This document shows positions 3,942 through 31,330 of a stretch of DNA of 64,000 nucleotides, in pieces. The notes below the pieces were generated by a model. The model ran no database searches, was not told where the DNA came from, and saw nothing but the letters and a program-made list of their open reading frames with translations. The DNA comes from Chthonomonadaceae bacterium. Its GTDB lineage: Bacteria > Armatimonadota > Chthonomonadetes > Chthonomonadales > Chthonomonadaceae. Location of the stretch: the NCBI GenBank assembly GCA_027450145.1, contig DAIDKH010000002.1, positions 26,256 through 90,255 of the forward strand, written 5' to 3'. The position numbers and the translations under genes are program-made. Positions within the stretch are counted from its first letter, which is position 1, and every line of letters starts with the position of its first letter.

Positions 3942-6311
3942 TCATCGAGATGCGTTCATCCAGAGCAGTACAGCCTCTGCACCAGCGCGTGCCTCCTCAT
4001 CCTGCTCATGGAGAACCTCCTGGCAAAGCTTGCGGTTATCTGGGAAGCGATATCCTCGGACACGCCGTAGGGCGTTGAGGATTTCCAACTTTTCCTCCAA
4101 AGTGATGAGAGATTCTGGCGTGGAAAGGATCTTACGTGGCAGCGTTGTGGCATCTCCAATCCCCTTCAGTGCCAAAGCGGCATCCGATCGAACACCACTG
4201 TCTTGATCCTTCAGGACTCGGGTGATGGCAGATACTGCTGTAACAGCGCCTATCTTGCCCAGTGCAATTACCGCTTCCGACCGAACATACTCATCGCCAC
4301 TTTGCAGCGCATCAATGAGAGCGGGAACTGCAGCACCGTCGCCGATCTTACCTAAAGCGATGGCAGCCTCAATCTGAACGTTTTCGTCCCTATCCATTAA
4401 GGCACCAACGAGGGCGGACACTGCAGCAGGTTCGCCAGTCTCCCCTAAAGCCGAGGACGCACATATTCGAACTATTGCTCGCTTGTCATCTAATGCCCGA
4501 ATGAGATCGGGCACCGCATCTACACCGATCTTGCTCAATGCTGAAATCCCGGCCCCACGTACATCCGAATCTTCTTTACCCAGCAGTTGTATAAGTGCTG
4601 GAATAGCGGAGGCGTCGCCAATCGCTCCTAACGCACCTGCTGCGTTTAAGCGTACGTCTATGTCTTCATCATTTAAACACTCGATAAGTGCTGGAACAGC
4701 GGAGGTACCGCCAATCTTCCCTAGGGCTCCAGCGGCTTGAGAACGTACAACCTCGTCTTCATCCTTCAGCGCACCGATGAGCGCTGAAACAGAGGAGGCG
4801 TCGCCAATCTTTCCTAGCGCTCCAGCGGCTTGTGATCGTACAACCTCGTCTTCATCCTTCAGCGCACCGATGAGCGCTGGAACAGAAGAGGTGTCGCCAA
4901 TATCCCCTAAGGCTCCGGCAGCTTCGGAGCGCACTCTCGCGTCTGCGTCATTCAATGCCTGCCCAAGAGAACGAGAAAGTGTCGTCTCACCCATCTCCCT
5001 CATCGCAACTATAGCACCAACTCGGACGTTCGCATCCCCATCATCCAAGGCTTTCACCAGTACGGGAAGTGCGGCAGTACCAATCTTCCCCAAAGCAGAT
5101 GCCGCCTCAGAGCGAACATGACTCACTTCATCCTTCAGGACCGCAAATAGGTGTGGAACAACGGTGACATCTCCTATGTCTCCCAATAAGGCGGCCGTAC
5201 GGGAGCGTACATTATCTGCCTCATCCTGCAACGTACCAATAAGATACGGAACAACTGAAGCATCGCGTATCCTTCCTAATGCAATGATCACTGCACAGCG
5301 AACCGATGAGTTCCTATCCTTCAGCCGCGCCAGAAGATTTGGGATGGCGGTAGTTCCGCCAATCTCACCTAAAGCTATTGCCGTAACAATTCGAATTGCA
5401 GCATCTGGATCGTTCAATTGCTCTAACAGCACAGGTACAACCTCAGCCTCTCCCAGCGCTCCCAAAGCAGAAATGGCGGTGATGCGATCTGAGTGATCCT
5501 TAGCTTTCAGGCGCGCAATATACTTTCTCGTGAGTGGCTTATAGTTCGAGGTAACATTAGCAGCGCTGTTCACGTCGCCTGAACCAGCGCTGTATACCGA
5601 TCTCCCGTCTTCGGCCTCCTCTTGTGGGGGGATGGCCGGCTGGTATAGAACAACATTACCGATCTTCCCTAATGCGGTGGCCGAATTACAAAGCACCAAC
5701 CAATTGTCGTCTTTCAATGCCTGGAAGAGAGCGGGAACCGCAGACGCAGCACCTATTTCACCCAACGCGGTGGCCGCACACTCTCGCACGTTATGGTCAT
5801 CATCCTCCAGGGCCTCGATAAGCGGGAAGACAGCAGACTGATCCCCGATCGCTCCTAACGCACTCGCAGATCTAGATCGAATAAAACCATAGTCATCATC
5901 CAACGCTTCGATAAGGGCTGGAACGCCTCGGGCGTCCCTGATCTGACCTATTGCGGTGACTACAACTGAGCGAACGGAGTGGTTAGTGTCATGCAATGAC
6001 TCGATAAGCGCTGGGACTGCAGATGCATGTTTGAGTTTTCCTAACGCACAGGCTGCCCCAGCGCGAACAGTGGGATTCTTAGCCTTTAAAGACCTAATGA
6101 GAGGGGCTACTGCAGCAAAATCATTAATCTCACCGAGTGCAAATGCGGCGCCAATAACTACGGAAGGAATCTCGTCTTCTAATGCCTGGATGAGCGCATG
6201 TACCGAAGAAGCATCTTTCACCTCTCCTAATGCGAAAGCCGTACTCATCCGGATGAACGGGTTACGATCCTTTAAACAGTCAATGTTTGGCTTTGTGTAG
6301 GTTTTCGACAT
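3942..6311 (-). CDS. Large PBS-lyase/HEAT-repeat protein
   Basis: A 789-residue protein made almost entirely of about 31-residue HEAT (PBS-lyase-like) repeats, roughly two dozen, with the recurring core ALGxIGDxxxVPxLIxALxDxD. Residues 230-265 form a non-repeat linker ([19 protein letters not shown]), splitting the array into N- and C-terminal blocks. No signal peptide or membrane helix is visible. Such proteins are scaffolds or lyase-like phycobilin enzymes; nothing here points to phycobilins, so scaffold is more likely. The start is preceded by GGAAGAGAG about 10 bases away. It lies between cassette A and Rhs fragment B. Two units near 4.8 kb are almost identical at DNA level, which shows recent growth of the array. 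Confidence 0.85.
4744..4929 (-). repeat. Two tandem 93-bp HEAT units
   Basis: The block starting CGTACAACCTCGTCTTCATC recurs exactly 93 bases later (4744 and 4837). The first about 45 bases of each unit are identical, and the preceding GCTCCAGCGGCTTG also recurs at this spacing. Each unit encodes one 31-residue HEAT repeat ([20 protein letters not shown]). The rest of the array is more diverged, so this is a recent duplication inside the gene. Confidence 0.8.
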
Positions 6312-10852: not shown

Positions 10853-10952
10853 TGGCGGGAGCGAGTGAGAATCGAACTCACCAGAGATAAGACGCGCTTA
10901 CCTCCCGAGCGGTTTTGAAGACCGTGGAGGTCACCAGACCCCAGGCGCCCCC
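10853..10952 (-). tRNA. selC: Selenocysteine tRNA (anticodon UCA)
   Basis: The minus strand folds as tRNA-Sec. The acceptor strand begins GGGGGCG and ends CGCTCCCG-CCA. The D-stem is 6 bp (GGGGTC with GACCTC), which is typical of tRNA-Sec. The anticodon stem CGGT/ACCG holds a 7-base loop CTTCAAA with TCA as anticodon. A long variable arm follows, and the T-arm is GTGAG/CTCAC around TTCGATT. CCA is encoded. At 100 nt it has the usual size for this RNA. It is charged with serine and converted by SelA, encoded 3 kb away, using selenophosphate from SelD. It lies just downstream of the selD-linked membrane gene on the same strand. Confidence 0.95.
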
Positions 10953-10977: not shown

Positions 10978-11412
10978 TTAATCGCGAAGGATGCTGTGTA
11001 ACTTCAGTCCTTGTAGTACGCCGGCCCAGGTTTCACATGCTAAAACGATAACCGAAGCAAATAGGACACCCAAAGCCACCAATGGATTAAATATAAACCA
11101 GGCTATTATTGTAGAGATGCGCACAATGACCATTGGCACAAATATGGTTAGCAGACTCGCCCATAATAGCGGGCGCCGACGAGTACCAGGACCTACATAA
11201 AGCCCTACAGATAAACTCCAGGAGAATTGTACCACCATAGAAATAATTACTAACAGGGCTATGAACGTAGCACTAACTTGTACGCCATGCCGAGCTTGTG
11301 CGAAAAGCACAAGGATTGCGACCAAGAAGACAATGTGCATAGCCATCAGGCATTTTGCGACTAGCACCGGGCGCTGGGCATAGGGGGGTCTTCTATCGTT
11401 GGTCAATTGCAC
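10978..11412 (-). CDS. Four-helix membrane protein overlapping selD
   Basis: A 144-residue protein with about four transmembrane helices (VFLVAILVLFAQA, FIALLVIISMVVQF, LLWASLLTIFVPMVIV, VALGVLFASVIVLACE). I know no family for it. It starts 10 bases inside the end of selD, so it is almost surely cotranslated with it, and it ends 26 bases before the tRNA-Sec. The position suggests a link with selenium metabolism, for example transport of a selenium compound, but nothing in the sequence proves this. Confidence 0.7.
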   Translation of the reverse strand: MQLTNDRRPPYAQRPVLVAKCLMAMHIVFLVAILVLFAQARHGVQVSATFIALLVIISMVVQFSWSLSVGLYVGPGTRRRPLLWASLLTIFVPMVIVRISTIIAWFIFNPLVALGVLFASVIVLACETWAGVLQGLKLHSILRD

Positions 11413-12479
11413 ACCTCAATTTCTACTTCCCCAGGTTCCAAGACTTCACCAATAACATCGGCGACGAGTGCTCCGTGAGCCAACAATTCAGTGCGCAACC
11501 GATCGACGCTGTCCGGGGCAACCACAATAGCGATGCCGCCGGAGGTTTGTGGATCCGCCACCAATTCCACGTAGTTGGTGTGTACATCACTTGCAAAAGC
11601 AACACTGTTAGCAGAGTAATCTCTGTTCGCCACCGAACCACCTGTCAACAATCCCGCTTCAATCAGCGTATCGACGCCGGCGATAGTGGGCAAGCTGCTT
11701 CCCCATAGTCGTAGCGAAACGTGGCTCCCTCTTGCAACGTTTAACAGATGTCCCAAAACTCCAAAGCCAGTAATATCGGTGGCAGCGTGTACAGGTAAGT
11801 TATCACCAATTCCCAGCAGAGCCATTACCGCCCCCGCAGGTGCGTTAAGTGATTTCATGCACTCTACCGCGCTCTGGTATACAACGGGATTACAGGCATC
11901 CGCACGGGCCGCTGTGGCAATAATTCCGACACCCAGAGGTTTCGTTAATACGATGAGGTCACCCGGTTTAGCGCCAGCGTTGGACGCAACATGTTCTGGA
12001 TCTATTAGACCCGTTACAGACATTCCAAATTTAGGCTCGGAGTCCTGAACACTGTGTCCACCCACCAGAACTGCTCCTGCTTCCTGGACCTTACTTGCAC
12101 CGCCAGCAATTATTTCAGCCGCTTCCTCGGGGCCACGGTCGTCAATTGGAAAGCACAGGATATTCATAGCCGTGACCGGCCGTCCACCCATCGCGTACAC
12201 GTCACTCAATGCATTCGCTGCGGCAATTTGGCCATACGTATATGCGTCATCCACAATAGGCGTAAAAAAGTCGACCGTCTGTACGAGGGCGCAATTAGCA
12301 CTTAGACGATAGACTCCGGCGTCATCGGTCGTCTGCAGTCCAACGATTAAATTGTTATCTGTTGGTAGATTTAACCGGCGCAGTACCTGCGACAGCCGGG
12401 CTGGCCCGATTTTTCCCGCTCAACCAGCGCAGTGCGCAAGATGCGTAAGTCTTGTGCGAATATCGATTGGTTCGGTCAC
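11403..12479 (-). CDS. selD: Selenophosphate synthetase (SelD), selenocysteine-containing
   Basis: SelD makes selenophosphate from selenide and ATP for SelA. Reading starts at GTG 12479, with AGGTGA about 5 bases upstream and a TGA two codons before it that excludes a longer frame. The N-terminus reads VTEPIDIRTRLTHLAHCAG, then UGA (12420-12422, residue 20), then AGKIGPARL. This aligns with the catalytic loop GAGC-GCKISP of E. coli SelD, so UGA takes the place of the active Cys and K23 is the conserved Lys. Beyond it the frame is clean: VGLQTTDDAGVYRL, TVDFFTPIVDDAYTYG, AAANALSDVYAMGG, TGFGVLGHL, DPQTSGG. Length 358 residues is normal for SelD. Ending the gene at an internal GTG (12254) would remove the catalytic loop. 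Confidence 0.95.
12375..12399 (-). promoter_or_regulatory. Candidate bacterial SECIS hairpin in selD
   Basis: Twenty bases after the UGA the minus-strand mRNA can form CCGGC/GCCGG and, inside it, GCAG/CTGC closed by a GUA loop, with an unpaired UGUC on one side. A G and U in the apical loop and a bulged U are features of bacterial SECIS elements. The loop G lies about 34 bases from the UGA, near the far end of the distances seen in known cases. SelB binding is inferred. Confidence 0.6.
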
Positions 12480-12517
12480 GTTTCACCTGCCTTCCACTCT
12501 TCGATTGCTGATGGATT

Positions 12518-12790: not shown

Positions 12791-14032
12791 CTACCACTGC
12801 ATCGTCGGTGTGGCCTCGTTCAGTTCCTTGACGGATTGGGCATGTGCAAGCAGGTTTTGGGCTGCGGTTCTCGTCTCGACGCTAGCATCTGGCATAGTGG
12901 ATAGCTTTTTAAGAAACTCGATTGCTTCTGGTGTTCCCTTCTTGGCGAGATCTTCTAGAATATTTAGCGTGAGGTTTGAACTGGTGGGCTCACCACTGTT
13001 TATTGGCCTAATCAACGTCTCGTTCCCGTGGGTTAAAGTCGACGCCGCAGCCCGCAGAAGTCCGTCCTCACGGCTAATAGGAGTTGCAGATGCACGTAAC
13101 AGTTGTCGAGGTTCTTTAGTTCGCTGGCTCCTGGCAATTATTGCTTCGTGGGCAGCGGCGGCAGCATCTTCCAATCCACCATTTTTCCCAAACGACAGCC
13201 AACCCGCCATGAGCATGTTGATGGTCCCCAGACACGACTCATCGCCGATGTGTACCATTGCCCCCAATATCGCGCGAACTAATGCGCGGTCTCCGCTCCG
13301 AAGCAGACGAGTTAGATTAGACACCGTTGTGCGAGTAACAAGACCAAAGTGACTTGCGTTAACACAGGCGAGTGGCCGTTGGAGCGACGCAATGGCAACT
13401 TGACGGACTCGCTTAGAAGGTGAATTACAAGCCTGTTCAGCCAGTTCATCCAGTACGTGGAAGGATCCCACTCGGCCCATGGCGCGAATAGCTTCGAGTC
13501 GAACCGCTAGTCGTGTACGCTTGCGCCATGAGCGCCGCTTCAGGCCCACCACCAATATCAGCAGAAGCAATGGCCCGCTTAAATACGGTAACGACGAACT
13601 CTGAAGGCCGAAAACCACTGCGGCTATGAGCAAAGCTACTACAGGCAGTTTCAAGCCCTTCGTCGATGACTTATCCTCGGCAACATTGTACACCGACGAC
13701 CTGTACCTGACCAATGCAGTTAACTCTGCCGCCACCTGTGATTGCTGGGCTTCATTCAATCTGGCGCGCCCTAGCGCCCATATGGCCGATATTTTCTGCT
13801 GCCAGGGGCGACGGCCGCGTGGGTGCAGCGCAGCAATGCAATCCTGAAAGGCATCGTCGGCGAGGTTTTGTCCCATGGCTACTGCCGTTGCGGCATCGCG
13901 CACCGGATCGTTAGACGGTAGCTTATCCAGCCATGTCCACACGATTTGAAGTTCCTCGGGATCTAGCCTGCTACCCATTTTCGACTCGTTATTTGCGGGG
14001 CCAAAGCCTTGTTCGTCCACACACTCCTCCAT
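12791..14032 (-). CDS. Membrane-anchored HEAT-like protein in the selenium locus
   Basis: A 413-residue protein of unknown function. Residues about 1-120 are soluble and helical (WTWLDKLPSNDPVRDAATA, ISAIWALGRARLNEAQ). Two transmembrane helices follow (LPVVALLIAAVVFGL and LSGPLLLLILVVGL). The C-terminal half is again HEAT-like (RLEAIRAMGRVGSFHVLDEL, RVRQVAIASLQR, ALVRAILGAMVHIGDESCL) and faces the same side as the N-terminus. It follows selA by 33 bases and precedes selD by 311 bases, all on one strand, so it is probably cotranscribed with selA. A direct role in selenium use is only suggested by location. Confidence 0.75.
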   Translation of the reverse strand: MEECVDEQGFGPANNESKMGSRLDPEELQIVWTWLDKLPSNDPVRDAATAVAMGQNLADDAFQDCIAALHPRGRRPWQQKISAIWALGRARLNEAQQSQVAAELTALVRYRSSVYNVAEDKSSTKGLKLPVVALLIAAVVFGLQSSSLPYLSGPLLLLILVVGLKRRSWRKRTRLAVRLEAIRAMGRVGSFHVLDELAEQACNSPSKRVRQVAIASLQRPLACVNASHFGLVTRTTVSNLTRLLRSGDRALVRAILGAMVHIGDESCLGTINMLMAGWLSFGKNGGLEDAAAAAHEAIIARSQRTKEPRQLLRASATPISREDGLLRAAASTLTHGNETLIRPINSGEPTSSNLTLNILEDLAKKGTPEAIEFLKKLSTMPDASVETRTAAQNLLAHAQSVKELNEATPTMQW

Positions 14033-14065: not shown

Positions 14066-15478
14066 TTAACATTCGCCGCCCGGTACCATAAGCGCTCTGC
14101 GAACTGCTTCCACAGCTGTTATAATTTCATGCCGCTCCATGGTCCGTGGGTCCAACCACAGGCAGTCATCGCGAATTCTCGCGATGACTGCAGGTCGCTG
14201 CTGCCTGAGCGAAGCCGCGAAATTCTCAACAGACACAGACACCGGCTTAACAACCACACACCAAGTAGGAAGCTGGTAGTGTGGCATTGAGCCTCCCCCA
14301 ACTTCCGACATAGATATTCGCAGGTCGAGTTCCGCGACGGTCTGAGGTACCGCTCGAGCAATCATATTGCACATCCTACGCGCCGCTCTCTTCAGTCCCT
14401 CAACGTCACGGTTCATATAATGAAGCGCAGGAACAGTAACACCGGCTTCACCGCTAAGATGCAGCACAAGCGTCGCTCGCAACCCGGCCAACGATAACTT
14501 GTCGATACGCATGGCACGTGCCAAAGGATGGCCAGAGAGCTGGTGCACCAACACCGCGCTACCTGCAACTACACCGCACTGCGGCCCACCCATCAACTTG
14601 TCCCCACTAAACGTCACCAGCCCAGCGCCAGCCTGCACACTCGCTCGAACAGTGCTGTCTGCCCATGGAGCGCGATGGAGGTTTCCGTTACCCTGGTCAT
14701 CCATCACGATCACACCTGCCCTGCGTCCCAGAACCGATAATTCCGCGATACTGGTCTCCTCTACGAATCCTGTCATTGCAAAATTCGACGGATGACAACG
14801 CAAGATCATCGCGGTATCGTTATTTATAGCTGCAGCATAGTCACCAATTCTGGTTTTATTCGTAGTACCGACTTCTCGGAGTCGCGCGCCAGCGGCCTCA
14901 ATGATCTCGGGCAGGCGAAACCCACCGCCGATCTCAACCATCTGGCCCCGCGAAATTATTACTTCGCGCCCGTGGGCCAGAGCTGAGATCGCCAGGAACA
15001 CCGCCGCTGCACAATTGTTTACAGCAAGCGTCTCCTCAGCCCCCGTTAATGCACGCAGGAGCTCCGCTACATGATCTTGACGGTTGCCGCGTTTTCCGGT
15101 TTCATCGTCGAGTTCAACCAGCGAGTGGTTCAAGGCCGTTTTGTATACAGCCTTAGCGGCCGCAGGTGCCATTCGTGCTCTTCCCAAGGCAGTGTGCAAA
15201 ATGACACCGGATGCATTTATCGCTTCAGGAAGCTCCAACGCACACATTGCTTCCACCTCATGGCACACAGAGGAAACTAGTTGATCAATCGTTGGTACTG
15301 GCGCGATTGTTGCCGTAAGGTCTTTACGCGCCTCATCGACTACCCGACGTACTGCGGCACTTACAATCGCTGGGCCGTGATTACTGGTACATGCTTTGAC
15401 CGCGGGCTGCTCTAGAAGTAAAGTTACGGACGGCAGTTGGCGCAAGATGTTGGATAAATTGTTCTCATTTTTATTCAC
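14066..15478 (-). CDS. selA: L-seryl-tRNA(Sec) selenium transferase (SelA)
   Basis: This PLP enzyme converts seryl-tRNA-Sec to selenocysteyl-tRNA-Sec with selenophosphate. Diagnostic stretches are LRQLPSVTLLLEQPAV at the N-terminus, EAINASGVILHTALGRA, ELLRALTGAEETLAVNNCAAAV, REVIISRGQMVEIGGGFRLPE, VGTTNKT, the lysine-bearing FSGDKLMGGPQCG that binds PLP, and NRDVEGLKRAA. I chose GTG 15478 (VNKNENNLSNILRQLPS, 470 residues) because family members start about ten residues before LPSV; a frame to 15526 exists. With tRNA-Sec and selD the window holds three of the four decoding parts; selB is not present here. Confidence 0.95.
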   Translation of the reverse strand: MNKNENNLSNILRQLPSVTLLLEQPAVKACTSNHGPAIVSAAVRRVVDEARKDLTATIAPVPTIDQLVSSVCHEVEAMCALELPEAINASGVILHTALGRARMAPAAAKAVYKTALNHSLVELDDETGKRGNRQDHVAELLRALTGAEETLAVNNCAAAVFLAISALAHGREVIISRGQMVEIGGGFRLPEIIEAAGARLREVGTTNKTRIGDYAAAINNDTAMILRCHPSNFAMTGFVEETSIAELSVLGRRAGVIVMDDQGNGNLHRAPWADSTVRASVQAGAGLVTFSGDKLMGGPQCGVVAGSAVLVHQLSGHPLARAMRIDKLSLAGLRATLVLHLSGEAGVTVPALHYMNRDVEGLKRAARRMCNMIARAVPQTVAELDLRISMSEVGGGSMPHYQLPTWCVVVKPVSVSVENFAASLRQQRPAVIARIRDDCLWLDPRTMERHEIITAVEAVRRALMVPGGEC

Positions 15479-15616
15479 GCTTTCATTATAGCAACTGAAT
15501 GCCATTCCTAAGACCCGCGTCACCATAGAACACCATGAGGATGCTCTGATGCATGTAGGAGAATTAGGTTCCTAGACAGAATATGCTTAGAAATCAGAAC
15601 TACTGGAGGTTATGCA

Positions 15617-31115: not shown

Positions 31116-31156
31116 AAAGACAAAGCAGCCTCAGAAGGTGCAGATCTAAACGCTTT

Positions 31157-31330
31157 CCTCACTCGTCTGAGCTTAAGCACCACGCACCGTAAGAGGCATA
31201 AGCCTCAGCCACATTAGGTTGACCCTTATGTCGGGAAGACCTGCTTCACCAGTAACACGCGTCTCTAGACGGTGCACGGCAGTGGCATGTGTGAACGTGG
31301 TAACCTCGCCTACCGAGGAACGAATTATTA
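31157..31330 (-). promoter_or_regulatory. M-box (ykoK leader) magnesium riboswitch
   Basis: The minus-strand RNA carries the conserved blocks of the M-box in order: AATTCGTT with GGTAGGCGAGG at the 5' side, CCACTGCCG, AGAGACGC, GACATAAGGG, TAATGTGGCTGAGGCTTATG, and GTGCTTAAGCTCAGACGA at the 3' end. These correspond to the B. subtilis ykoK leader blocks GTTAGGTGAGG, GCTGCTGCC, AAAGACGC, GACATAAGG, TAATGCAGCTGGATGCTT and GTGCTAAAGCTC. M-boxes fold when Mg2+ is high and switch off downstream transport genes. Here a terminator follows, then the 95-residue frame and the Nramp-related transporter. The alignment was made by eye. Confidence 0.85.

Follow-up and report, generated by a model that had tools for sequence, protein, structure and literature searches.

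A putative selenocysteine-containing selenophosphate synthetase encoded by a selD gene with an in-frame UGA in a Chthonomonadaceae bacterium

Selenophosphate synthetase (SPS, SelD) is the one protein of selenocysteine (Sec) biosynthesis that is often a selenoprotein itself, and Sec forms made up 19% of the prokaryotic SelD genes in a 2015 reference set, with the position of Sec always the same (PMC4561486). In the E. coli enzyme the selenide-binding residue is Cys17, and a Ser mutant of this residue is catalytically inactive (PMC3956282). An earlier survey found Sec-SelD in all Sec-decoding organisms without FdhA (PMC1794560), a pattern that fits the genome analysed here, whose FdhA (formate dehydrogenase) homologues contain no in-frame TGA.

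The present analysis concerns the window, a stretch of 64,000 nucleotides of this genome, for which a first-pass annotation had proposed that selD is a selenoprotein gene with UGA at its catalytic position, noting correctly that Sec-containing SelD is known in some bacteria (PMC4561486, PMC1794560). A conserved UGA, a single selD, the presence of selA, selB and selC and a covarying hairpin all speak for this proposal, and selD can almost certainly be taken to encode a Sec-containing selenophosphate synthetase with SelB-dependent Sec at codon 20.

The selD gene and its in-frame UGA

11403..12479, minus strand: selD (selenophosphate synthetase), 358 residues with predicted Sec at residue 20 (translation, TIGR00476, AIRS and AIRS_C)
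12483..12488, minus strand: ribosome-binding site AGGTGA, 3 nt before GTG 12479 (sequence)
12420..12422, minus strand: in-frame UGA, putatively read as Sec (U20), at the catalytic Cys17 site of E. coli SelD (3u0o alignment; TGA/TGC/TGT column of 44 sequences)
11403..11405, minus strand: selD terminator UGA, the true stop of the same gene (sequence)

The minus-strand frame opening at GTG 12479 reads VTEPIDIRTRLTHLAHCAG, then UGA (12422-12420), then AGKIGPARLSQVLRR, the immediate surroundings being VTEPIDIRTRLTHLAHCAG-UGA-AGKIGP; it contains one in-frame UGA before the terminator, and its start position is kept in close relatives in the alignment. Start, ribosome site and UGA all lie where the first-pass annotation had placed them, while the interval it gave (12360-12479) belongs to selD but covers only the 5' part of a gene that runs to 11403. 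Its expectation that a standard gene call would start at 12254 and lose the active site was borne out by an ordinary ORF caller, which returned 283 aa only; the annotation corrected here thus concerns a gene that standard calls cut off at its active site.

The read-through product scores 362.5 bits against TIGR00476 (cut-off 125) and carries both the AIRS and the AIRS_C domain, and its AlphaFold model (pLDDT 91.2) has a PurM/AIRS-type two-domain fold, with the Aquifex and E. coli SelD enzymes as nearest structures (TM of the predicted model to 2yye_A 0.88/0.93). By family and predicted fold it is very likely a selenophosphate synthetase, and formation of selenophosphate is predicted. When aligned with E. 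coli SelD (3u0o), the UGA falls, as had been claimed, on the first Cys of GAGCGCKISP, that is on Cys17, and the catalytic Cys/Sec is followed by Lys at +3 in both (G-U-A-G-K here, E. coli GCGCK); these two columns are invariant in alignment A2, in which U was read as C.

The 283-aa ORF beginning at 12254 allows for another reading, in which translation terminates at the UGA and restarts at GTG 12254, yielding a shorter protein that resembles SelD and has a role other than selenophosphate synthesis. This is very improbable: K23, D52-D53-D70 and the catalytic residue itself, all invariant and all located in the read-through part, would be missing from the restart product, the codons from the UGA to 12254 encode protein conserved in relatives, and there is no other selD in the genome to support its Sec system.

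Conservation of the UGA argues for its being read as Sec. Among 44 aligned SelD sequences, the window's own included, the codon-20 column holds TGA in 32 and TGC or TGT in 12; TGA persists down to about 43% identity, and every UGA form aligned has it at this very codon. Of 201 sampled genomes of the phylum, 98 had a SelD match, and together they gave 99 SelD places covering the N-terminal region and two further places without it; one in-frame TGA was present in 82 of the 99 covered places (about 83%, counted from the table), its exact position having been checked in the 44-sequence alignment and not at all 82 places. In the SelD tree, sequences named Fimbriimonadaceae and Chthonomonas fall inside a clade of same-phylum rows. 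Judged from these genes, Sec is the predominant form of SelD in this little-studied phylum (Armatimonadota), which is therefore one where the selenium-activating enzyme is usually a selenoprotein itself. One genome of the sample (G164) has one TGA-containing and one TGA-free SelD copy, possibly a duplication with a Sec/Cys split, or else contamination.

The genome is a draft (4.14 Mb, 168 contigs, 96.65% complete), and a TGA in such an assembly might stem from faulty sequencing or assembly, or selD might be a pseudogene. However, the selD of a congener (a separate genome, 77% identity) has the same TGA at the same codon, as do most relatives in the phylum, and the TGA is therefore not a sequencing error; moreover, the frame 3' of the TGA is intact, as first described, with the invariant SelD residues kept. 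We consider this explanation exceedingly improbable. A second complete Cys-type selD, which would have spoken against a Sec form, was not found in this 96.7%-complete genome, whose single selD is that of the window.

The predicted bSECIS hairpin

12375..12395, minus strand: predicted bSECIS hairpin, 33 nt downstream of the UGA; GUA apical loop at 12386-12384, closed by a core stem that pairs 12391-12387 and 12383-12379

The bSECIS that the first-pass annotation had suggested looking for 3' of the UGA was found as a predicted hairpin backed by covariation. It consists of the core CGCAG-GUA-CUGCG, with an uninterrupted stem of 5 bp, and an outer extension, and has an energy of -8.2 kcal/mol. Published bSECIS rules (PMC13188914, Fig. 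2) give a loop of 3-9 nt, a stem of 4-16 bp, G in the first two loop positions, a distance of 16-37 nt from the UGA and an energy of -7.5 kcal/mol or lower, and the window hairpin agrees with all of these in its GUA loop, its stem, its distance and its energy.

In single-sequence folding of 40-101 nt around the UGA, stability was no greater than that of shuffles (z near 0), and the bSECIS therefore rests on comparison. Alignment A1 comprised 28 UGA forms, L028, L037, L043 and L046 being left out as having a shifted or unseen hairpin; in it the hairpin helix (helix 2) is 89.7% paired, with changes on both sides in five of nine pairs. For the whole tested structure the covariation score was 0.282 as against 0.04-0.10 in slid-partner controls, a difference from which shared ancestry is not fully removed, and RNAalifold, unprompted, finds the same hairpin.

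Because the stem encodes the conserved residues QVLR, a comparison with synonymous recoding was run, which used each gene's own codon usage and took in the four sequences left out of A1. The mean stem score of the UGA forms was 16.9, compared with 5.2 expected from recoding, and 21 of the 32 were singly significant (P < 0.05), whereas Cys-type selD scored 2.25 vs 2.33 expected; the hairpin was not found in Cys-type selD (12 Cys forms of the 44 sequences). For the window selD alone P was 0.049, and the weight of support for the predicted hairpin is carried by the sequence set. The stem of L013 has only 3 bp, while L028, L037, L042, L043 and L046 have the hairpin in a shifted position or do not clearly show one there.

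An earlier hairpin (positions 14-18 with 23-27 after the UGA) was considered as part of the bSECIS and rejected, being often present yet just 65.7% paired. With about 30 UGA forms, their natural Cys counterparts and a covarying bSECIS, these genes are a good set on which to test bSECIS prediction and to ask why SelD keeps Sec.

Decoding machinery and other uses of Sec

10853..10952, minus strand: selC, tRNA-Sec with anticodon TCA (ARAGORN; Rfam RF01852, 61.4 bits)
14066..15526, minus strand: selA, Sec synthase (TIGR00474, 477 bits)
10978..11412, minus strand: gene for a hydrophobic protein of 144 aa, located between selD and tRNA-Sec, with an ORF that overlaps the selD end
12791..14032, minus strand: gene for a HEAT-repeat protein between selA and selD (Pfam HEAT_2)

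The tRNA-Sec and selA do lie in the selD locus, as the first-pass annotation had it, and in many relatives selA and/or tRNA-Sec is likewise near selD (tRNA-Sec in loci L010-L012, L017-L021, L025, L029, L030, L034 and L048). A genome without selB, which that annotation had named as grounds for refutation, is not what was found: a full-length selB (638 aa) with the SelB-specific winged-helix domains SelB-wing_2 and SelB-wing_3 is located on another contig, so that selA, selB and selC are all present. The 144-aa hydrophobic protein, for which no Pfam or NCBIfam family match was obtained, has counterparts in the corresponding position in L010, L030, L011, L012 and L026 (40-64% identity) and could be a selenium-linked membrane protein. 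The HEAT-repeat gene sits between selA and selD only within the same genus, and its product is probably a bystander. Elsewhere in the window, an ORF at 3942-6311 (minus strand) encodes a product that, by eye, is built of HEAT-like repeats, and an M-box (ykoK) magnesium riboswitch (116.8 bits) is located at 31151-31324 (minus strand).

Two further candidate selenoprotein genes were identified in the genome.

L061 1568-2149 (genome contig C4:75567-76148): AhpD-like selenoprotein gene (TIGR01926, 118.9 bits; HCFYUTESH)
L060 1384-1944 (genome contig C18:45883-46443): gene for a ResA/redoxin-like selenoprotein, active site UxxC (FYUGTC)

At 17 nt past its UGA the AhpD-like gene has a strong bSECIS-like hairpin of 8 bp with a GUU loop, of the same GU-loop kind as that of selD. 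Both genes are of selenoprotein kinds already catalogued (PMC13188914, PMC9312934). The selenoproteome survey of the genome was made by families and is partial; in it, thioredoxins showed no in-frame TGA and selenouridine synthase was not found, while the control of a UGSC search gave no signal. A scan of the window for more UGA genes with bSECIS-like hairpins left SelD as the sole believable case. The TGA-free Fdh homologues, together with the missing selenouridine synthase, had made it seem possible that SelD was the only selenoprotein, serving itself alone; this idea was dropped when the AhpD-like and ResA-like UGA genes were found, and the genome has at least two predicted selenoprotein genes besides selD.

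In the mechanism that we propose, SelB-GTP-Sec-tRNA(Sec) would bind the G-U apical loop of the hairpin that closely follows codon 20 and deliver Sec to the UGA, after which the ribosome would complete the 358-residue enzyme. U20, in a flexible N-terminal loop, would be the selenide-binding nucleophile; SelD would convert selenide and ATP to selenophosphate, SelA would use this to form Sec-tRNA(Sec), and Sec-tRNA(Sec) would in turn be needed to make further SelD along with two or more other selenoproteins. As a logical consequence of this scheme, the supply of Sec would depend on its own product, as the first-pass annotation claimed, but SelD is not the only selenoprotein of the genome.

An in-frame UGA does not by itself reveal which residue is inserted, and decoding as an amino acid other than Sec, through code reassignment or leaky read-through, would also give a full-length product. 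Against this, UGA also terminates the same gene, and as both Sec codon and stop in selD it has not simply been reassigned; the gene instead depends on context for the distinction between Sec and stop. The complete Sec machinery in the genome, the alternation of the codon-20 column solely between TGA and Cys codons, and the hairpin accompanying the UGA forms likewise argue against non-Sec decoding, to which we assign hardly any probability. As far as the sequences can tell, Sec insertion at codon 20, the role of Sec as nucleophile and the reliance of SelD on what it produces are all very likely; actual insertion and catalysis are what we infer from them, as is a possible C17-U20 selenenylsulfide.

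The active-site motif and comparison with known SelD systems

The active-site loop, C-A-G-U-A-S/G-K, has Cys17 at -3 of U20 and, in the window SelD, Gly at +2, and so differs from the E. coli-type loop (C/U-x-C-K). Among the 44 sequences Cys occurs at -3 only in 28, at +2 only in 11, at neither position in five and at both in none, a distribution whose statistic is inflated by shared ancestry. Two Cys-type enzymes, L035 and L050, also have Cys at -3, and the C-x-x-U/C pair is therefore not tied to Sec. One review gives the SelD motif as UxxK (PMC13188914), and CxxU is not mentioned for SelD in the consulted passages of two reviews (PMC13188914, PMC9312934), though it may be described elsewhere. 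The predicted C-x-x-U motif without Cys at U+2 is slightly unusual for SelD. We tentatively suggest, as a possibility that is rather less than even, that in Armatimonadota SelD the partner thiol has changed place, from U-x-C (+2) to C-x-x-U (-3), so as to form a CxxU pair like that of thioredoxins, and that Sec may be ancestral in the phylum. If so, the pair could form a selenenylsulfide, which would protect U20 or aid selenium hand-over; whatever its redox meaning may be, the motif poses a testable question, namely how active-site Sec stays reduced.

The AhpD-like CxxU selenoproteins (TIGR01926, NF041238; PMC13188914) resemble this case in that a gene of this kind in the present genome also combines an in-frame UGA with a GU-loop hairpin, but they are a different protein, relevant just as a use of Sec elsewhere in the genome. 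E. coli SelD (3u0o) shares fold, family, catalytic-loop alignment and the Lys three residues past the catalytic residue, but has Cys17 in place of Sec and its second Cys at +2, where that of the window SelD is at -3. The nearest solved fold, Aquifex aeolicus SelD (2yye), has no Cys at +2 either (SSGCAAKVGP); in contrast with the window enzyme, it has Cys at the catalytic site and no partner Cys at -3. The closest counterparts are the bacterial Sec-SelD proteins (PMC4561486, PMC1794560), which likewise have one UGA at the catalytic position, a bSECIS within the coding region and Sec machinery in the genome. They differ in frequency, the 19% of the PMC4561486 survey comparing with about 83% of the covered places in this phylum, and in the motif, which here is C-x-x-U-A-S/G-K and not of the type with Cys at +2. 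Sec-containing SelD has long been known, and what is less usual here is the Sec majority in a phylum and the C-x-x-U motif.
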